Source of the DNA: a virus
DNA: 22,341 bases
IMG/VR virus record: IMGVR_UViG_3300019776_000520
Span: 1-22,341 of that record
Strand: one strand, 5' to 3'
Shown here: positions 3,632 through 22,304 of the stretch, piece by piece
Position numbering within the stretch: the stretch's first letter is position 1
Layout: every line of letters begins with the position of its first letter
The notes under the pieces: model-generated
Seen by the model: the letters and a program-made list of their open reading frames with translations, nothing else
What the model was told of the DNA's origin: nothing
Database searches by the model: none
Made by a program: the position numbers and the translations under genes

Positions 3632-4056
3632 CCCAGGTCGCCCGCCGGATCGCTGAGCACAACCATGCGCGCCACTCTGCCCAACAGCCACAGCAGCCGG
3701 GTCCAGACCCGTCCAGCCCCATGGGTGGGCTGCTCTCGCAACTGGCGGCCGTGGGTGCGTTTGACGCGCAGGGCGAGCCAGACCCCGGGGGCGACATCGT
3801 GTACCTGTGGCCCGAATGCGTTGATGCATGGGGCCACTGGCAGCAGTTGCAAACCCAGTGGCGCACCGGCGTGGCTGGCGCCACGGGCCTCGACTACACC
3901 GGCGTGCGCGCCTACCTGGACGAGCAAGGCATCGAGCCCGGCCCCGAGCGGCGCGAGCTGTTCGCCTGCCTGCAGGCCTGCGAGTTCGCAAGCCTTGAAG
4001 CGTGGTCCGAGCTGCGCGCTAAAGAACCACGGCCACCACCCCTAACCAACCGGTAA
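3628..4056 (+). CDS. DUF1799-like extension, made as a -1 frameshift fusion to the tail chaperone (gpGT-like)
   Basis: The -1 frame entered at 3628 gives 142 residues (LAQVARRIAEHNHARHSAQQ...), so the full fusion would be about 253 residues. The C-terminal part has the pattern 'DIVYLWPECVDAWGHWQQLQTQWR' followed by 'TGLDYTGVRAYLDEQGI', which fits the phage DUF1799 family usually found after the tail chaperone gene. In lambda the T extension binds the tail tube subunit while G binds the tape measure, and the same role is inferred here. An independent start at ATG 3721 (MGGLLSQL) is possible but has no visible ribosome-binding site. The slippery site makes the fusion more likely. Confidence 0.75.
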   Translation, partial: LAQVARRIAEHNHARHSAQQPQQPGPDPSSPMGGLLSQLAAVGAFDAQGEPDPGGDIVYLWPECVDAWGHWQQLQTQWRTGVAGATGLDYTGVRAYLDEQGIEPGPERRELFACLQACEFASLEAWSELRAKEPRPPPLTNR

Positions 4057-4062
4057 CGCTGC

Positions 4063-7000
4063 ATGACCGCACCCCTTGGCATCACCCTCAGCCTCGACGG
4101 CGTACAAGCCACCGAGCAAGGCCTGCGCCGTGTGGCTGGCGGGGTGGACGCCGTTGGTGTGTCCGCCAAGCAGACGGCCGCCGCATTGCGTGGCGTGCCG
4201 GCGCAGTTCACCGACATCGTCACCAGCCTGGCCAGCGGCCAGGCGCCGCTCACTGTGTTCCTGCAGCAGGGCGGCCAGCTCAAAGACATGTTCGGCGGCG
4301 CAGGCAATGCCGCCAAGGCGCTGGGCGGGTATGTGGTGGGGCTGGTCAACCCGTTTACTGTGGCTGCGGCTGCGGGTGTCGCCCTGGCCCTGGCCTACAA
4401 GCAGGGCAGTGCAGAGGCTGATGCCTACGCCCGCTCCATCGCCCTGACGGGCAATGCTGCGGGCGTCACCACGTCGCAGCTGCAAGGTATGGCAGAGCGC
4501 GTGTCTGCCGTGGTGGGCACCCAGTCCAAGGCAGCCGAAGTGGTAGCCCAACTGGTGGGCACCGGCAGCATCGCATCGCAAAACCTGGAGCAATTCACCG
4601 CCACGGCCATCCGGCTGGAGCGCAATGCCGGTGTCGCCGTCAAGGACACGGTGAAAGAGTTTGCCGAGCTGGGCAAGGAGCCTGTGGAGGCGGCCAAGAA
4701 GCTCAATGAGCGGTACAACTACCTCACGGCGGCGGTGTACGAACAGATCAAGGCGCTGCAGGAGCAGGGCAAGGCCAGCGAAGCGGCAGCGCTCTCGCAG
4801 CAGTCCTACGACAAGGCCATGACCACCGTGGCTTCGACGCTCGAAGGGCGACTTGGTTACCTGGAGCGCGCATGGCGTGGCGTGGGTGATGGTGCCAAGT
4901 GGGCATGGGACCAGATGCTCAACGTTGGTCGCCCGAGTACTGCCAAGGATGCTGCGGATGAGGTGAGGTCGCGCCTTTCACGCCAACTGCAGGAGCTGGC
5001 GGACAAGCGGGCGATCAACCCAAACGCGGATACGTCAGGTCTGGAAAAGGGTATTGAAGTGCTCAGGCAGCGCCTGGGAGTCATGGAGAGTGATGAGCGC
5101 ATGTTGCGTCGTGCGGCAGACGCGCAGGCGGCGAGAACCCAGGCGGAAAGGGATGCCATTGTTGCCAGCGACGAACTTCAAAAGATTCAGGCCAAGGGGC
5201 TAACCCAGCGGCAGCAAATGAATAAGGAGCTGGAGAAGTACCGGCAGAACCTTGAGAAAGAGCGCGCGGTAAATCCCGGCTCCGCGACCTTGACGCCCGA
5301 AGCTATTGCCCGTGGCGAGCGCGCCATCCGCGACCAATTCAAGGACCAGGCGGGCGCATCCACCGGCGAATCCGAACTCGCCACCATCAAAGCCAAGATC
5401 ACCGAAACCGAAAAGTACATCGAGGCCCTGCGCACCCAGGGCCTGGAGGGTGCCAAGCTCAACGACGGCGAGCGCATGGCCCTCAAGATCAAGGAAGAGC
5501 TCAAGACCAGCATCACCGGCACCGCCCGCGCCAATAAAGAGCTGGCCCTGGTGGAGGCTGAAAAGCTCGGCCTGGTGCAGCGTGCCGCAGCGGCTGAAGA
5601 GCAGCGCCAGAAGGCTGTCAAAAAGTCCACCGACGAATACGCCAAGCTGGTCGAGAGCACCTTCAAGGCCGCCGATGCCCTGCAAGACCAGGCAGACAAG
5701 CAGCAGGCCGCCAACGCCGTGTACGGCAAGGGCGCCGCCGCCATCGATGAGCTGGCCCTGACCACCCTCAAGTCCCGCATGGCCGAGGCCCAGGCCTCCG
5801 ACAGCTTCAGCGAAAAGTACATCGCCGCGCTGGAGGCTCAGATCCAGGCGCAGGAGCGCCTGAACGCCGCCCGCGCCGAAGGCCGGTTCAAGGAGATGAA
5901 CGAATCCCTGGACCGCGAACTGGCCGCTGCCAACCAGCAGGCCGCGCTGTACCAGGACGAACTGCGCCTCACGGGCCTGTCGGCCCTGGAGCGCGCCAAG
6001 ATCGTCGCCCTGCGCCAGTCCGAGCTGGAGCTGGCCCGCGACCTCGAAAAGATCGAACAGGGCGGATTCAAAGACGCTGAAAAAGAACAGCTGCGCATTG
6101 TTGCCCGCGAAAAGCAGCGCGTGGCAGGCTCCGCCGCCGTCAACAAGGTTATCCAGGACGATTTCACCCGCACGTCAGAAACCATCGAGCGCTCGCTCAC
6201 CGACGCGCTGCTGCGCGGCTTCGAGTCGGGCAAGGGCTTCGCCAAGAACCTGCGCGACACCGTCGTCAACATGTTCAAGACGCTGGTGCTGCGGCCCATC
6301 ATCAGCGCCATCATCAACCCCGTGGCGGGCGCCATCACTGGCGCGCTGGGCTTGGCTGGCACTGCCAGCGCTGCCACTGCGGCGGCCAGCGGCGGCAGCA
6401 TCCTGGGCAGCGCAGGGGGCATCCTCAGCGGCGTGGGCGCACTGGCGGGCAACTTTGGTGCAGGCCTTACCACCGGCTTCTCTGGCCTCATGGCGGGCAA
6501 CCTGGGCTCTACGCTGGGCCTTGGTACAGGCCTCATCGGCTCTGGCGCAACGGCGGGCGGCATTGGCACCATTGTGGGCGCATTGGGGCCCATCGCCCTG
6601 GGCATCGGCGCCCTGGTAGCCATCAGCAAAGCCACCAAGGGCGAAACCCGCACCGGCGGCCAGTTCGGCGTGTCGTTCGACGGCACCGTGACCAACCAGC
6701 GCCGTGACCAGGTTTACACCTACCAGGGCCAGCAGTTCGACCGCGACTTCTCCAACGGCCAGCGCAACGCGCTGATCGCTGGCCAGGCCTACCGCCTGGA
6801 AGGCGACCCGGTGCAGAACGAGCAGGCTATCCGCGATGCGGTCTCGGGCACGGCCAGCGGCATCAATGCCTTCCTGAAGGCGTTGGGCAGCAAGGCCACC
6901 CTGACGGGCTTCTCGGCAGGTCTGGAAACGTCCAGCAAAGGCCGGGGCGGTGTGTTCGCGGGCGGCATCTTGTCCGATGGCACCACCTTCGGCGAGAGCG

Positions 7001-16956: not shown

Positions 16957-17227
16957 GCCGGGGCTTGCGGGCGCCGGTGTTGGGTGGTGGCAGCTGGGTG
17001 GACTTGGGGCGCGACGCCGCCCAGGTGGCAACCTCGATCGCCAGCCACCCCACGCGGCGGCCTGAGAGCTGGCGCGGCTCGGGGAAGTGGCCCTCGCGCA
17101 CCATCTGCTGCACGGTGGAGACCGACACGCACAGCGTGGTGGCCACGCCCGGCAGGTCCAGCACCATGGGCGTGCCGGGGATGAGCAGCTTTTCGGGTGG
17201 AAATGCGGTGGTGGTTGTATCAGTCAT
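16928..17227 (-). CDS. AlpA-type helix-turn-helix regulator/excisionase
   Basis: 99 residues from ATG at 17227. The core is a winged HTH of the AlpA/excisionase type: 'LPGVATTLCVSVSTVQQMVREGHFPEPRQLSGRRVGWLAIEVATWAA'. The recognition helix is VSVSTVQQMVREG and the wing ends in the W-x-x-x-E-V-x-x-W pattern. A Pro/Arg-rich tail follows. It may act as an excisionase for the neighbouring integrase or as a transcription regulator. Its ATG overlaps the reverse transcriptase stop (ATGA) with AGGAGGAAT just upstream, so it is the last gene of the retroelement operon and faces the integrase gene tail to tail. Confidence 0.8.
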   Translation of the reverse strand: MTDTTTTAFPPEKLLIPGTPMVLDLPGVATTLCVSVSTVQQMVREGHFPEPRQLSGRRVGWLAIEVATWAASRPKSTQLPPPNTGARKPRPTQAAAQAA

Positions 17228-18327
17228 GCCTCATTCCTCCTGAATACCTTGCTCAAATTCATCCCCTCCACCGCGTGCCCGCGCTTCAGCAGCGCCCGGC
17301 ACACGGCCGCGCGCTCCTTGTGGCTGTGGCTGGCCTGGCGCACCAGGCCCAGGTAGCTGTTGCCCGCGCTGAAAACCTCGGCGGCTGGCAGGTGCTCGAT
17401 GCGCTGCAGTGCGCTGGCCAGGGTGCGGCGGCGGGTGGTGCGGCGCCAGGGCTTGATGATCTGGCCTACAAAGTCGATACCCCTGTCCACTGGCTGCAGG
17501 ATGGTTTTGCTGGGGTTGAGTTGCACGCCCAAGTTCGCGGGCAACCAGGCGGTGATGTCGCGCAGAGCGGCGCTGAGCCAGCGGGCGTCGGAGTGCAGCA
17601 GCACGAAGTCATCGACATAGCGCACGTAGTGCGGCGCGCGCAGCTGGTGCTTGGCGTATTGGTCCAGGCCGTCCAGCAGCACATTGGCGAAGAACTGGCT
17701 GCTCAGGTTGCCGATGGGCAGGCCGGTGTCGGCTGGGGCGTTGAACAGGCTCTTGTGCGCGGGCACGCGGCGCAGGGTGCTGGCCTTGCCGCGCACCTCC
17801 ACGTCGCTGCGCGGGTCGTGCATCAGGATGGTGGTGGCCAAGGCCAGCCACCAGGGCTCATGAATGCGGGCGGCCAGGCGCTGCAGCAGGATGGGCTTGC
17901 GGATGCTGACAAAGAAATTGGCGCAGTCGCACTTCAGGTAGAAGGCGGGGCGGGCCCAGTTCTGGGTGCAGCTGCGCACCTGGGCTTCCAGCCGCTGGGC
18001 GCCGTACAGGGTGCCCCGGCCTGGGATGCAGGCGCAGGAGTCGGCCACAAACGATGCCTCGAAGCGCGGGCCGATGTGGTTGTAGAGCAGGTGGTGCACG
18101 ATGCGGTCGCGGAACTGCGCGGCCCACACCTCGCGCGGCTTGGGGCGGGTGATGGCAAAGCAGATGCTGCGCCCGGGGCGGTAGCTGCCGTCCAGCAGCT
18201 CGGCGTGCAGGTCGCACAGGTTGCGCTCCAGGTGCTGCTCAAACTCGCGGGCGCTAGCGGTGTTGCGCTTGTGCTGGCGGCAGTCGATGTAGGCCTGCAG
18301 CAGGGTGTTGAGAGTGGGCACGGTCAT
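17224..18327 (-). CDS. Reverse transcriptase of a diversity-generating retroelement
   Basis: 367 residues from ATG 18327, chosen because it overlaps the methyltransferase TGA (ATGA); an ATG at 18342 would add five residues. RT motifs are in order: catalytic Asp about residue 134 in YLKCDCANFFVSI, the DGR-type motif IGNLSSQ at 205-211 (family pattern [I/V/L]GxxxSQ, where most other RTs have QGxxxSP), and the YVDD box at 237-240. The C-terminal thumb is short, with no maturase, RNase H or endonuclease domain, as usual for DGR RTs. Together with Avd it copies the TR RNA with adenine mutagenesis and directs the cDNA into the VRs. The TR, two VRs and Avd nearby make this assignment firm. Confidence 0.95.
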   Translation of the reverse strand: MTVPTLNTLLQAYIDCRQHKRNTASAREFEQHLERNLCDLHAELLDGSYRPGRSICFAITRPKPREVWAAQFRDRIVHHLLYNHIGPRFEASFVADSCACIPGRGTLYGAQRLEAQVRSCTQNWARPAFYLKCDCANFFVSIRKPILLQRLAARIHEPWWLALATTILMHDPRSDVEVRGKASTLRRVPAHKSLFNAPADTGLPIGNLSSQFFANVLLDGLDQYAKHQLRAPHYVRYVDDFVLLHSDARWLSAALRDITAWLPANLGVQLNPSKTILQPVDRGIDFVGQIIKPWRRTTRRRTLASALQRIEHLPAAEVFSAGNSYLGLVRQASHSHKERAAVCRALLKRGHAVEGMNLSKVFRRNEA

Positions 18328-20165
18328 GCTGCAACCATCCATGCGGCCTCATGACCAAAGTTCGCCCGCACCAGTGCCTCGGCCTGGGGTGGGCTGACGC
18401 TGTTGCCGCACATGCGCACCTGGGCGGTGGCTGACAGGGGGATGCGGGGCACCTGCAGGGGGTGGGCGGCCTGCTTGCCGTCTTTGAACAGCAGGGCGGG
18501 GTTGGGGATTTCGTGGATGACGTAGCCCTCGGGGAAGCCCTGGGCCTTGAATAGCTCTTTGGGCTTGAGCATGCGCAGGGTGATGTCCACCAGCGCCCAC
18601 CAGCTGCCCGCGTGCCACATCAGCACCATGTCGGCCGGGGTGGGGAAGTGTTCGGGCAGGTGCTGGTGCAGCAGCTCGGCGCACTGGCGGGCGCGGGCCC
18701 GGTGTTCTGGGGCCAGGCTGTCGGCGCTGACCTGCACGGCCTGCACCAGGCCCATGCGGCCCTTGGTGGGCGGGGTGTGCATGGGCTCGCCCAGGCCCTG
18801 CCACTGGCCGCCGCTGCTGTAATACTTGACGGCGTAGGCGGTGATGAGGCGCTGCTGCGCGCCGCTGGATGTAATGGTGCTGGCGGGAGCATCCATGGGG
18901 CGGCCGTCGCCGTCGTAGAAGCCGCCGTTGGCTTGCTCCAGGCAGGCGGTGACCAGAGCGCTGGGCGGGTTGCTGGCGGTGCAGGTGCCCAGCGGGATGC
19001 GCACGTCGCGCACGCCGTGGCTGAATCGCTTGGTGCCGCAGGCGCCTTCACCGTGGCCCATGTCCACCAAGTGGGCGGCTACCAACCCCTGGGTGATGCC
19101 GGTGCTGGGACGCTTGGGCGCGCCGCCCGCCGTGACGGTGGGGTGAGGTGTCAGCAGGCTGCAGCCCACGCTGCCCGTGTTGAACTTGGTCAGAAAGCCT
19201 GCCGCCATGGCGCCTTGTGAGCCCAGGCCGGTTGCCGTCCAGTACGGCTGCTCTACGCTACGCACGCGCGGCTGCTGGCCTTTGCGCTCGCCGTTGCGGG
19301 TGTTGACCAGGTAGGGCGTGGTTGTTTCATCGTTGGCGCTGTGGCTCACGATGAACGGCGTGGCCGTAGCCAGCACATGCCGCCACAGCCCCTTCGCCAC
19401 CCGGCGCTGGGTGTTGGTGGCCAGGGGCTTCTTGCGGTCGAAGATGCTGGCGGCCTGCAGGCTGAAGTCGATGCACTCGGCGGCCGTGCGGTGGGGCAGT
19501 AGCTTGCCTGCCAGAACGCGGCGGTCGGTGGGGGCGGCGTGGGTTTGCTCGGGCCAGATGATGGGGAGGCCGTCGCGGCGGGCGATCAGGAACAGGCGCT
19601 TGCGGATGGTGGGGGCGCCGTTGTCGCAGGCACGCAGCTCGCGCCAGTCCACCACGTAGCCGTGGGCGCGCAGCTGGCGCACAAAGCTGGCAAAGGTTTT
19701 TCCCCTGCGGGCGGGGTCGGGCCGGGCGGTGCCGTCGGCGCCCATCAGCAGGGGGCCCCAGGTCTGAAACTCTTCCACGTTCTCCAGCATGAGCACGCGC
19801 GGCTTGGTCAGCGCCACCCAGCGCATGCCCACCCAGGCCAGGCCCCGAATGTGCTTTGCCACGGGCGTGCCGCCCTTGGCCTTGCTGAAGTGCTTGCAGT
19901 CTGGCGACAGCCACACCAGGCCCACGGGCTGGTTGCCGGTGACGGCGATGGGGTCCACGTCCCACACGCTTTCGCACAGGTGTTGGGTGTGCGGGTGGTT
20001 GATGGCGTGCATGGCCAGCGCCTCGGGGTCGTGGTTGATGGCGATGTCCACGGGGCGGCCAAAGGCGGCCTCCAGCCCGGTGCTGGTACCGCCGCCGCCG
20101 GCGAAGTTGTCAATGATCAGCTCGCCGGGGAAGGCGAGAGGGAGGGTGAAGGCGTCGCGTTTCAT
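18324..20165 (-). CDS. C5-cytosine DNA methyltransferase
   Basis: 613 residues from ATG 20165. Motif I is IIDNFAGGGGTSTGLEAAFG (residues 17-36). The catalytic loop is LSPDCKHFSKAKGG with Cys90, so the usual Pro-Cys is Asp-Cys, as I recall for a phage-type subgroup. Motif VI is ENV (128-130) and motif VIII is IRKRLFLIAR (187-196). Motifs IX/X are LKPKELFKAQGFPEGY and GNSVSPPQAEALVRAN near the end. The large central part (~230-480) would hold target recognition. It transfers a methyl group from S-adenosylmethionine to cytosine C5. No restriction enzyme gene is adjacent. It sits between TR and RT of the retroelement, with ATGA overlaps on both sides, which is unusual. Confidence 0.9.
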   Translation of the reverse strand: MKRDAFTLPLAFPGELIIDNFAGGGGTSTGLEAAFGRPVDIAINHDPEALAMHAINHPHTQHLCESVWDVDPIAVTGNQPVGLVWLSPDCKHFSKAKGGTPVAKHIRGLAWVGMRWVALTKPRVLMLENVEEFQTWGPLLMGADGTARPDPARRGKTFASFVRQLRAHGYVVDWRELRACDNGAPTIRKRLFLIARRDGLPIIWPEQTHAAPTDRRVLAGKLLPHRTAAECIDFSLQAASIFDRKKPLATNTQRRVAKGLWRHVLATATPFIVSHSANDETTTPYLVNTRNGERKGQQPRVRSVEQPYWTATGLGSQGAMAAGFLTKFNTGSVGCSLLTPHPTVTAGGAPKRPSTGITQGLVAAHLVDMGHGEGACGTKRFSHGVRDVRIPLGTCTASNPPSALVTACLEQANGGFYDGDGRPMDAPASTITSSGAQQRLITAYAVKYYSSGGQWQGLGEPMHTPPTKGRMGLVQAVQVSADSLAPEHRARARQCAELLHQHLPEHFPTPADMVLMWHAGSWWALVDITLRMLKPKELFKAQGFPEGYVIHEIPNPALLFKDGKQAAHPLQVPRIPLSATAQVRMCGNSVSPPQAEALVRANFGHEAAWMVAA

Positions 20166-20539
20166 GCGGCGTGTTCCCGGTGTAGGGTGGCCGCACCCTT
20201 GGGCACGACCAGGGTGGATGAATCTGCGGACAGGACGGGCGCGGAACTCGTTGTCCTTGTTGTTGGCGTTGCTGTTGCCGTACTCGAAGTCCTGGCAAAA
20301 GGCGTTGTTGCGCGAGTACTGCGAAGCGTCGAGCTATCTACGTCGCCCTGCCGAAGGCTTGCGCCGATCAGCGGGGAAACTGCGCCGGACCGGGCCGCGC
20401 TGGTGTGCCGCGCGGTGGTATCCGTGGTGCGCCTGGCGGTGGGGCTGACAGTCAGCACCGCTGGGGTGCTGGTGCTGCTGGAGCCCAGCGGCTCGACCAG
20501 ATTCATAAAGCGCACGGGCATGGCGGCCTTGGCTGTCAT
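20162..20539 (-). CDS. Open frame containing the template repeat, coupled to both neighbours
   Basis: 125 codons from ATG 20539 to TGA 20162. The ATG overlaps the avd stop as ATGA, and the TGA overlaps the methyltransferase ATG as ATGA. The N-terminal half (MPVRFMNLVEPLGSSSTSTPAVLTV...) is Ser/Thr-rich. The C-terminal half is the TR read in a different frame from the targets, where the AAC codons become a Thr-rich stretch (STATATPTTRTTSSAPVLSA). No family is recognised. It may be translated only to carry ribosomes from avd to the methyltransferase, or may be chance openness of the TR RNA leader. The precise double overlap argues for translation; composition is neutral. Confidence 0.4.
   Translation of the reverse strand: MTAKAAMPVRFMNLVEPLGSSSTSTPAVLTVSPTARRTTDTTARHTSAARSGAVSPLIGASLRQGDVDSSTLRSTRATTPFARTSSTATATPTTRTTSSAPVLSADSSTLVVPKGAATLHREHAA
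20224..20324 (-). repeat. DGR template repeat (TR)
   Basis: About 101 bp matching VR1 and VR2. Read on the - strand in the target frame it contains seven AAC codons, the hallmark of DGR templates, at the codons that vary in the targets. All 11 differences to VR1 and all 12 to VR2 are at adenines of this strand; I count 26 adenines in the 101 bp. The 3' 26 nt (+ strand 20224-20249) contain no differences and correspond to the IMH* region. It lies between avd and the methyltransferase, 57 nt before the latter's start. Confidence 0.95.
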
Positions 20540-21006
20540 GCTGCAGGCGCTGCGGCGGTGTTGTCGAACAGGCCGGGCGTGTAGCCTTGTGGCTCTGCCG
20601 ACGGGGTGGCGGTGGCTGGGGTGGCGCCATCGCCCACCGGGTTGCCGGTGAGTCGGGCCCGGGCGGACTTGAGCCAGCCGTTGGCCATCTTGCCGATGGC
20701 GTCGGTCAGCTCGATGCTGTTGGCCCACAAGGTGGTGGCGATCAGCCGCTTGGCGTGCGCAGTGCGCAGCAAGATCTGCGCTACCTGTAGGCGCTCCAGC
20801 AGCTGCTCCAGGTGGGTGGCGCGGTCTTGCGGCTGGCGGGCCGCGTTGGCGCGGCCGATGAGCACCAGAATCTCCACGCACTCGTCCGAAATGCGGTACC
20901 CCACGGACGCCCGAAAGGCGCGGGGTATACGGGCCTGCACGTCGGTGCACAGGTCGAGCAGGGCGGTGCCGTGCTTGTGGATTTCAAGGTCGGTGGCGAG
21001 GGCCAT
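20536..21006 (-). CDS. avd: Avd-like DGR accessory protein (four-helix bundle)
   Basis: 156 residues from ATG 21006; an upstream in-frame TTG at 21033 is less likely. Residues ~1-120 are predicted as four amphipathic helices: ALATDLEIHKHGTALLDLCTDVQARIPRAF..., YRISDECVEILVLIGRANAA, THLEQLLERLQVAQILLRTAHAKRLI, and TTLWANSIELTDAIGKMANGWLKSAR. This is the S23/Avd-type bundle that forms a basic pentameric barrel and binds the RT and TR RNA in known DGRs. A Pro/Ala-rich tail of ~35 residues (GDGATPATATPSAEPQGYTPG...) extends beyond the usual ~125 residues. It lies between target gene 1 and the TR, the same order as in the Bordetella phage DGR. Confidence 0.88.
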   Translation of the reverse strand: MALATDLEIHKHGTALLDLCTDVQARIPRAFRASVGYRISDECVEILVLIGRANAARQPQDRATHLEQLLERLQVAQILLRTAHAKRLIATTLWANSIELTDAIGKMANGWLKSARARLTGNPVGDGATPATATPSAEPQGYTPGLFDNTAAAPAA

Positions 21007-21046
21007 GGTGCAAAACGGGGTCTGGTGGGCCAAAAAATCACGCGCG

Positions 21047-21065
21047 ACCGGCGCTGCGCGCCGGT
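21047..21065 (-). repeat. Hairpin downstream of VR1
   Basis: ACCGGCGC, loop TGC (GCA on the coding strand), GCGCCGGT: a perfect 8-bp stem. It lies 43 nt beyond the VR1 end, in the 3' untranslated region of target gene 1. The identical 19 nt occur after VR2. Known DGRs have a hairpin/cruciform after the VR that helps retrohoming. A weak T-run follows ~9 nt later, so a terminator role is also possible. Confidence 0.8.
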
Positions 21066-21081
21066 GAGCGGGCGGAAGGGT

Positions 21082-21582
21082 TTAAGTGCTCAAGTGCTGA
21101 AGTTGAACTCTGCGGACAGGACGGGCGCGGAACTCGCCGTCCTTGCTGTAGGCGCGGCTGCCGCCGTACTCGAAGTCCTGGCAAAAGGCGAAGTAGCGCG
21201 AGTACTGCGTGCTGCTCCAGTACCAGTCCTTCTGCTGGAACAGTTCGGGCGCGGTGGCCGACAGGGCGCGTAGCTCGGCGTCGGCGGGCAGGTACCAGTC
21301 GGTGTGGCCGCCAAGGTCCAGGGCCTTGATGCGCAGGGCCAGCTGCAGGCCTGCGGCGGCCATGGCGTCGGTGTTGGCCTGGCCGTCGGTCTTGCTATCG
21401 GCGCCGGTGATGGTGGTGTAGTCCTCAGACCAGGTTGTGTCTTCAATGTCGGCCGATGCTTCGGACACGATCAGGGCGTAGTCCCGGCTGCCGTCGGCGG
21501 CTGCGCCACGCAGGATGGCGCCAAAGTGGCCGCCGTGGGTGGTAAGGAGGGTGCCGAACAGAGGAATGGTGATGGTGCGCAT
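21082..21582 (-). CDS. DGR target protein 1 (DUF1566/C-type-lectin-like variable protein)
   Basis: 166 residues from ATG 21582 (MRTITIPLFGTLLTTHGG); a longer frame upstream crosses VR2-gene sequence in the wrong frame and is rejected. The DUF1566-type core has GHTDWYLPADAELRAL (~101-116), WYWSSTQYS (~120-128), AFCQDFEYG and a closing FRARPVR strand, typical of formylglycine-generating-enzyme/C-type-lectin-fold variable proteins. The VR covers residues ~125-158. Codons that are AAC in the TR are here Tyr130, Phe131, Gly141, Arg143, Tyr145, Ser146 and Gly149, while the scaffold between them is unchanged. There is no signal peptide or membrane anchor. Likely a ligand-binding protein displayed by the phage or the lysogen. 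Confidence 0.9.
   Translation of the reverse strand: MRTITIPLFGTLLTTHGGHFGAILRGAAADGSRDYALIVSEASADIEDTTWSEDYTTITGADSKTDGQANTDAMAAAGLQLALRIKALDLGGHTDWYLPADAELRALSATAPELFQQKDWYWSSTQYSRYFAFCQDFEYGGSRAYSKDGEFRARPVRRVQLQHLST
21110..21209 (-). repeat. Variable repeat 1 (VR1)
   Basis: 100 bp aligned without gaps to TR 20224-20323, with 11 substitutions, all at TR adenines on the coding strand: AAC becomes TAC, TTC, GGC, CGC, TAC, AGC and GGC in order. The 3' end (+ strand 21110-21135) is identical to the TR and is the likely IMH. Homology stops sharply on both sides. Confidence 0.95.
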
Positions 21583-21612
21583 GGGGTGCTGCCTTTCAAA
21601 AATTTGCGTCGG

Positions 21613-21631
21613 ACCGGCGCTGCGCGCCGGT
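21613..21631 (-). repeat. Hairpin downstream of VR2
   Basis: The same 19 nt as at 21047-21065 (8-bp perfect stem, 3-nt loop). It is 47 nt beyond the end of VR2, between the stop of target gene 2 and the start of target gene 1. Flanking sequence is otherwise different, so the hairpin itself is the conserved unit. Confidence 0.8.
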
Positions 21632-21665
21632 GGTGGGTGGGTGAAAGTGGCGAAGGGTTGGAGGG

Positions 21666-22304
21666 CTAAAGTTGAATGCTGCGGACAGGACGGGCGCGGA
21701 ACTCGTAGACCTTGCCGTTGGCGCCGCTGCCGCCGTACTCGAAGTCCTGGCAAAAGGCGAGGTCGCGCGAGCACTGCGAGCTGGTCCAGTACCAGCCCGA
21801 GGTCTTGAACACCTGGGGCGCGTGCAGGTAGCACATCAGCAGCTCGATGCGGCTGGGCAGGTAGTAGTCGGTGTGGCCGTCTTCGGTGTACTTAGCAGCC
21901 CACTCGGCTGCAGGGTGTTCGTCGCTGGCAGCTACTAGGGCGGCGGTATTGGCGCGGCCGTCGGTCTGGCTGGTGGCGTCTGGGGCTTCTTCGCCGTAGG
22001 GGCCCCAGGTCAGGTCTTCGGCCTCGTTGGTGCCTGCCACCAGGTGGCGGGCGGACAGGCCAAACTGGGCGGGCAGGGTGCAGATGAAGATGCCGCCCTG
22101 GCCGGGCCATGGCTGGCCGGGTGCGGGTGGGGTCGGTGCGGTGGTGGCTACCGGTGCAGGGGCGGATGGCGCAGCCACGGCGCGCAGGCTGGTACCGTCG
22201 TTGGCAACGCGCTGCAGGGTCTGCAGCACTTGCTCCATGCCAATGTGGGCGGCATGGGGCGCCTCGGGCTGTAGCAGGGTGATGTTGAGGGTTTTGATGT
22301 ACAT
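21666..22304 (-). CDS. DGR target protein 2 (DUF1566/C-type-lectin-like variable protein)
   Basis: 212 residues from ATG 22304, with GAGG about 10 nt upstream. The N-terminal ~45 residues (MYIKTLNITLLQPE..., helical MEQVLQTLQRVAND) form a separate segment. An Ala/Pro/Thr linker follows (~46-67, PSAPAPVATTAPTPPAPG), then the variable domain: LTWGPYGEEA, GHTDYYLPSRIELLM, WYWTSSQCS, AFCQDFEYG, FRARPVR. It is a clear paralogue of target 1. TR-derived variable residues are Cys178, Asp181, Leu182, Gly192, Gly194, Asn196 (unchanged), Gly197, Val199 and Tyr200. The extra N-terminal module may tether it to another structure. It is the most upstream gene of the cassette in this window. A promoter is not visible in the 37 bases before it. 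Confidence 0.9.
   Translation of the reverse strand: MYIKTLNITLLQPEAPHAAHIGMEQVLQTLQRVANDGTSLRAVAAPSAPAPVATTAPTPPAPGQPWPGQGGIFICTLPAQFGLSARHLVAGTNEAEDLTWGPYGEEAPDATSQTDGRANTAALVAASDEHPAAEWAAKYTEDGHTDYYLPSRIELLMCYLHAPQVFKTSGWYWTSSQCSRDLAFCQDFEYGGSGANGKVYEFRARPVRSIQL
21679..21779 (-). repeat. Variable repeat 2 (VR2)
   Basis: 101 bp aligned without gaps to TR 20224-20324, with 12 substitutions, all at TR adenines. Besides AAC codons, TAC became TGC and GAC became GTC; one AAC is unchanged. The invariant 3' block is + strand 21679-21704. Confidence 0.95.

Follow-up and report, generated by a model that had tools for sequence, protein, structure and literature searches.

The stretch of DNA analysed here (the window) is a virus fragment of 22,341 bases from IMG/VR, not a whole genome, and carries siphophage-type tail genes, lysis genes and an integrase next to a diversity-generating retroelement (DGR). 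A complete DGR with two DUF1566-type targets and one template (TR) had been predicted, and all of its parts are present on the minus strand; its membership in the DGRs is secure. In the order of transcription, the element consists of target 1, target 2, avd, a non-coding stretch, TR, a methyltransferase gene, the reverse transcriptase (RT) gene and an AlpA/excisionase-like gene. The original prediction left out the methyltransferase between TR and RT as well as the structured RNA in the avd-TR gap, and its account of the RNA and the gene order was incomplete in this respect. The features are as follows.

21666..22304, minus strand: target gene 1, 212 aa, with a Lcl_C/DUF1566-like C-terminal domain holding VR1 (phrog_4245, E 2e-29; Lcl_C 25.5 bits, under the Pfam cut-off of 34.9)
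21679..21779, minus strand: VR1, differing from TR at 12 sites, all of them TR adenines
21613..21631, minus strand: hairpin ACCGGCGC-GCA-GCGCCGGT, 47 nt downstream of VR1, a candidate target-recognition hairpin
21082..21582, minus strand: target gene 2, 166 aa, with a Lcl_C/DUF1566 domain holding VR2 (Lcl_C 43.8 bits, over the cut-off)
21109..21209, minus strand: VR2, differing from TR at 11 sites, all of them TR adenines
21047..21065, minus strand: hairpin ACCGGCGC-GCA-GCGCCGGT, 43 nt downstream of VR2
20536..21033, minus strand: avd, accessory variability determinant (bAvd PF22296, 41.1 bits, over the cut-off; phrog_3206, 'Avd protein of DGR'; NCBIfam NF033474 under the cut-off)
20322..20552, minus strand: structured RNA of the Rfam family RT-15 (RF03018), a proposed 5′ scaffold for the DGR RNA (157.3 bits; the match covers model positions 1-192, the full 192)
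20498..20506, minus strand: a1 strand ATGAATCTG, within a stretch unpaired in the Rfam model (covariation with a2; MFE fold)
20491..20497, minus strand: 5′ strand of the P2 helix, GUCGAGC, immediately 3′ of a1 (Rfam structure line; MFE fold)
20328..20334, minus strand: 3′ strand of the P2 helix, GCUCGAC, 3-4 nt 5′ of TR (Rfam structure line; MFE fold)
20223..20324, minus strand: TR, with seven AAC codons when read in the frame of the VRs
20218..20226, minus strand: a2 strand CAGATTCAT, at the 3′ end of TR, partner of a1 (covariation; MFE fold)
18324..20165, minus strand: cargo gene for a C5-cytosine DNA methyltransferase, 613 aa (PF00145, 78 bits; motifs FAGGGG, SPDC and ENV)
17224..18342, minus strand: DGR reverse transcriptase, start probably at 18327 (PF00078; phrog_1423; motifs IGNLSSQ and YVDD; BPP-1 bRT 8ub7 as best solved relative)

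The methyltransferase stop and the RT start overlap in ATGA. The two RT motifs named beforehand were found at residues 210 (IGNLSSQ) and 242 (YVDD), and among solved structures the nearest to the window RT is the BPP-1 DGR RT (8ub7, E 1e-35), followed by a group II intron RT (E 1e-10). The retron RT model NF038233, whose cut-off is 235 bits, gave a score of 33.5 bits, so the enzyme is not of the retron type. The gene called Avd-like likewise deserves that name by its Pfam match over the cut-off and its PHROG annotation.

When TR was aligned to both VRs, all 23 mismatches (12 in VR1 and 11 in VR2) fell on TR adenines, just as had been claimed; with 26 adenines among 99 TR positions, the hypergeometric p values are 1e-8 for VR1 and 6e-8 for VR2. 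The count of seven AAC codons in TR was also correct. The statement that stop codons cannot arise is true of these AAC codons but not of the whole TR, since TR also holds an AAG codon from which a TAG stop is possible. Adenines outside the AAC codons were varied too (in VR1, TAC became TGC and GAC became GTC). Profile matches place the Lcl_C domain, putatively C-type-lectin-like, at the 3′ ends of the target genes, which hold the VRs; the target stop codons follow the VR ends by 13 and 27 nt. An AlphaFold2 model of target 2 (pLDDT 76, VR loop below 50) gave no fold match in PDB.

In this family, a stem of at least 7 bp occurs within 80 nt of 38% of 183 VRs, against 2% in shuffles. The role of such a VR-downstream hairpin is known only from BPP-1, where it lies 4 bp from the VR (PMC3240598), as against 43-47 nt in the window. 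Matches to the Rfam family CRISPR-DR20 at 21039 and 21608 were far under threshold and were rejected; their positions coincide with the two hairpins. A third VR is present in 11 of 94 TR-bearing relatives (L018 3577, L031 908, L034 3353, L039 4889, L041 1630, L092 4892, L093 4996 and others). It often lies 2-6 kb upstream of the cassette, and thus one TR can serve distant targets.

Two near-identical sisters of the window, a virus contig (L002) and an Acidovorax MAG (L082), each have an RT 96% identical to that of the window. Variation of the VRs among siblings had been expected at TR adenines, and in six comparisons among these three sequences 60 of the 74 VR differences are found there. Of the 14 others, 13 are TR differences carried into the VRs; the last, a T-to-G change in VR1 of L082, is unexplained. 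The TR of the window reads TTT where both sisters and an outgroup (L003) read TGG, and the TR of L082 has a C-to-T change near its 3′ end. In each of the three sisters both VRs have, at these sites, the version found in their own TR. Since both VRs carry the TR changes of their own lineage, copying from TR to VR postdates the separation of the window, L002 and L082. Judging from these sequences, the DGR of the window is a recently active one, with homing since the sister phages split.

The ~210 nt between avd and TR match RT-15 (RF03018) over its full length with 157.3 bits against a gathering score of 82, and the match ends at the start of TR. RT-n motifs were reportedly defined by Weinberg in 2017, and the Rfam entry gives the type of RT-15 only as 'Gene; sRNA'. 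No Rfam family scored in the stretch 3′ of TR in the window. In the DGR of BPP-1 (mtd-avd-TR-brt), the element Sp is a structured RNA that recruits RT-Avd and primes the cDNA (PMC12875486); it matches Rfam family RF03022. No RF03022 match was met near the DGR of the window at E values up to 1, so a BPP-1-type Sp between TR and RT was not found there, and RT-15 and the BPP-1 Sp gave no cross-match at E values up to 10. In the 92 relatives that possess avd as well as TR, median gap lengths are 171.5 nt for avd-TR and 13 nt for TR-RT, and in 84 of them TR and RT lie no more than 50 nt apart. RT-15 thus appears in a position 5′ of TR, inverted relative to the BPP-1 scaffold.

The same arrangement emerged when the RNA was searched for first. 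In 401 genomes of one bacterial family, eight RT-15 matches exceeded the cut-off. Seven of them are flanked by avd on one side and by an adenine-type TR on the other, with VRs present and an RT match alongside (a partial one in L117); two of these seven, the Comamonas genome seeding the search and the contig of L083, had also been found via RT. The eighth belongs to an avd-bearing remnant without TR or RT. In a search of 369 Gammaproteobacteria, the sole match was the genome used as search centre. RT-15 also lies between avd and TR in the isolated phages Cruim01, Magia, Haboob and QDWS, and the Cruim01 record already annotates RT-15 beside its RT, whereas the phage DGRs FP_Lagaffe and BalMu-1 keep the BPP-1 layout. 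A few side observations were made in these records. L121/L128 is a decayed DGR that has kept avd and most of RT-15 (L128 8134-8288) but lost TR and RT, with an unrelated open frame within about 100 bases downstream. The Haboob record has a 'hypothetical protein' annotated antisense over RT-15 (L131 4232-4444), which is probably not a gene. The virus contig L054 carries two type II hammerhead ribozymes, one at 4501-4581 (62.9 bits) and one at 5314-5379 (55.2 bits), both lying a few kb upstream of its DGR.

TR and RT are more than 250 nt apart in 8 of the 92 loci. These eight fall into four distinct groups on the RT tree, and their cargo always lies 3′ of TR. It is a C5-methyltransferase gene in the window, a different C5-methyltransferase gene in L082, a DUF3606 gene on the other strand in L002, a C5-methyltransferase gene that looks frameshifted in L020, an N6/N4-methyltransferase gene in L085/86, a PAPS-reductase-domain gene in L031 and a gene of unknown kind in L041. 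In two sister sets (window/L002/L082 and L031/L041), the DNA to the left is 90-93% identical until about 5-35 nt past TR and the RT is about 94-95% identical, while the intervening genes are unrelated or only distantly related. No comparable insert between avd and TR was seen among the 92 loci; the sole large avd-TR value, that of L019, reflects an avd to which an early stop was assigned. Cargo only 3′ of TR, with none 5′, is what would be expected if the needs of the RNA end at a2. In this group of phages, DNA methyltransferase genes are common slightly downstream of RT (L003, L018, L027, L044, L077, Cruim01, Haboob and QDWS), and the cargo of the window may therefore be a moved neighbour. 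The DGR is likely active with the cargo in place.

These exchanges bear on whether the element could be an ordinary DGR of the BPP-1 type, with its essential scaffold 3′ of TR, hidden in the RT coding sequence or in a cargo gene, and with RT-15 as an extra. The 3′ spacer of BPP-1 is required for RT-Avd recruitment and priming (PMC12875486), and cargo-free relatives have the RT coding sequence immediately 3′ of TR, where it could still contribute to the RNA; the latter counts against a scaffold that lies 5′ only. However, in both sister sets the sequence 3′ of TR is unrelated between sisters that are otherwise 90-95% identical, and homing went on after the window, L002 and L082 split. Moreover, RF03022 is absent near the window DGR at the E values given above, and RT-15 shows conservation of both sequence and structure as well as covariation with the TR 3′ end. 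We therefore regard a hidden 3′ scaffold as unlikely and a scaffold 5′ of TR as the better reading.

The covariation concerns a stretch TGAATCTG (Rfam consensus UgAAUCUGG), which is conserved, is left unpaired in the RT-15 model, and is complementary to the TR 3′ end CAGATTCA. In the window, ATGAATCTG (20506-20498) pairs with CAGATTCAT (20226-20218) about 280 nt away, and we call the two strands a1 and a2. Among the 50 different versions that 83 relatives provide, 83.6% of the a1/a2 cells are paired, versus 72.6% when shuffled and at most 44% in slid registers, and two-sided changes occur in seven of the nine pairs. Pair 3-24, for example, occurs as UA (22), GC (19), CG (3), UG (2), AU (1) and GU (1), with two sequences unpaired, and rare variants of the core are compensated on the other strand (CATTTG/CAAATG, AACCTG/CAGGTT and ATCTC/GAGAT). 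Cognate strands outpair non-cognate ones to an extent reached in none of 20,000 permutations. An independent-pairs test on the RT tree had too small a number of supported pairs, and a null simulated along the RT tree was used in its place; this gave p = 0.001 for the outer four pairs, mostly from pair 7, with pair 9 lacking support and pairs 6 and 8 weakly supported on their own. The helix is reduced to five core pairs plus mismatches in some relatives (L031/L041 and L037).

Folding agrees with the pairing tests. Unconstrained MFE folding of the window RNA alone recovers the a1/a2 helix, adjoining P2, and the same holds for the a1/a2 helix in 32 of 83 relatives, versus 2 of 83 with a shuffled a2. 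A single RNAalifold run on the spacer and TR of 71 divergent relatives gave no useful consensus, and for this reason Rfam and local pairing tests were used. Since a2 pairs with a1 and a1 adjoins P2, TR forms a loop of ~100 nt whose ends coincide with two helices. This retron-like topology, a TR loop held between two helices, is well supported.

The same data speak to a different role for RT-15, that of a cis-regulatory leader for expression of avd or RT, outside the working structure of the template RNA. In relatives without cargo RT-15 precedes RT within the operon, which would fit such a leader, as would the bare classification as 'Gene; sRNA'. But RT-15 shows covariation with the distal end of TR, about 280 nt off; it keeps to TR and not to RT where cargo separates the two; and it stands at no fixed distance from the RT start. 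A leader is accordingly an improbable explanation, somewhat more so than the hidden 3′ scaffold, and a part in the template RNA remains the preferred one.

Least probable is that the avd-TR region is coding, in which case TR would encode an N-terminal extension of RT. An open frame does run through spacer and TR in many relatives, is open through TR in most, and continues in L002 in frame into RT, and spacer indels among the three sisters are multiples of three. Long chance frames, however, follow from GC-rich DNA, and the frame of RT misses TR in 11 loci, the window included (the others being L020, L031, L041, L053, L061, L068, L079, L082, L085 and L094). A 21-base difference in the window sits in a hairpin that stays paired (GGGCT...AGCCC), and the region holds the structured RNA RT-15. 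We have therefore rejected the idea that TR belongs to the reading frame of RT.

Taken together, the computed observations (DGR parts, adenine specificity, past homing, the position of RT-15, a1/a2 covariation and cargo exchange) fit a phage DGR that diversifies two Lcl_C proteins by means of an RNA with a 5′ scaffold, and we hold it probable that RT-Avd works on RT-15, that the cDNA runs from a1/a2 to P2 and that cargo is tolerated. The order of this RNA would be P1 hairpin, a1, P2 multibranch domain (these together being RT-15), TR and a2, and its extent RT-15 plus TR plus about 8 nt. RT-Avd would bind the RT-15 part of a transcript running through TR, and the a1/a2 pairing would put the TR 3′ end next to the scaffold. 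Synthesis of the cDNA may start beside the a1/a2 helix, with errors at adenines, and may halt at P2, which would fix the cDNA length. Priming from the 5′ scaffold might use a 2′-OH in RT-15, as in retrons, or another route. The cDNA would then replace VR1 or VR2, aided by the hairpins 43-47 nt downstream. Sequence 3′ of a2 would be dispensable, and with the needs of the RNA proposed to end about 8 nt past TR, the TR-RT junction would tolerate exchangeable cargo.

The DGR of BPP-1 shares with that of the window the RT, Avd, one TR, adenine-specific VR changes, a GC-rich hairpin downstream of the VR and a location in a phage. In BPP-1, however, avd abuts TR, a 144-nt Sp scaffold lies between TR and brt, and there is one target and no cargo, whereas the window has its RT-15 in the avd-TR gap, lacks a 3′ spacer, and carries two targets as well as a methyltransferase gene between TR and RT. 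The Rfam family RT-15 matches the window over its full length and lies between avd and RT in other phages as well, but its model stops at the start of TR and hence lacks TR, a2 and the a1/a2 helix, and its name is silent on DGRs. The retron msr-msd RNA has the same topology, with the scaffold 5′, the template in the middle and a 3′ end whose pairing partner is a strand located 5′ of the scaffold (a1/a2). Unlike in retrons, the window RT is a DGR RT and its product homes into VRs with adenine mutations; the likeness is one of topology only, not of membership.

The DGR of the Bacillus phage BalMu-1 also has an RT-n Rfam RNA adjoining TR, RT-14 (RF02921). In contrast to RT-15 in the window, RT-14 lies 3′ of TR (3789-3932; TR end 3791, RT start 3944), and its layout is thus that of BPP-1. 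The DGR of the Bacteroides uniformis phages F2 and F4, with DUF1566 targets (PMC8143477), resembles that of the window in its avd-TR gap of 128 nt, its TR-RT gap of 33 nt and an 8-bp a1/a2-like helix, GTTATCTG/CAGATAAC. It differs in an RT of 35-37% identity and in the absence of an RT-15 match (F2 scanned). An 8-bp helix was reached by 15-16 of 200 shuffles and is not significant alone; an a1/a2 equivalent in F2/F4 is suggestive. A broader reading, to which we lean less than to its opposite, is that these elements make up a second class of DGR RNA with a 5′ scaffold, retron-style priming from RT-15 beside a1/a2 and a stop at P2, in which the two helices would set both ends of the diversified segment. 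Such a class may extend beyond Proteobacteria to the Bacteroides phages F2 and F4.

DGRs as a kind and RT-15 as a Rfam family are already known. In a literature search that was incomplete and lacked the paper believed to define RT-15, we found no text linking RT-15 to a DGR template or dealing with an a1/a2 helix, a 5′ scaffold or exchangeable cargo; within that coverage, the link between RT-15 and the template, the a1/a2 helix and the 5′ scaffold are apparently new. What is known of the DGR mechanism comes largely from BPP-1, whose scaffold lies 3′ of the template. If our reading is true, DGRs use at least two RNA layouts, the RT-15 RNA has a function, and a compact, insertion-tolerant RNA would be at hand for programmable mutagenesis of reporter proteins. 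A family with a 5′ scaffold also has a bearing on how DGRs and retrons are linked in evolution, and with it one can test what fixes the ends of the diversified segment. Isolated phages with this layout exist. Finally, the inverted RNA layout may explain how unrelated genes can come to lie inside a DGR without breaking it.
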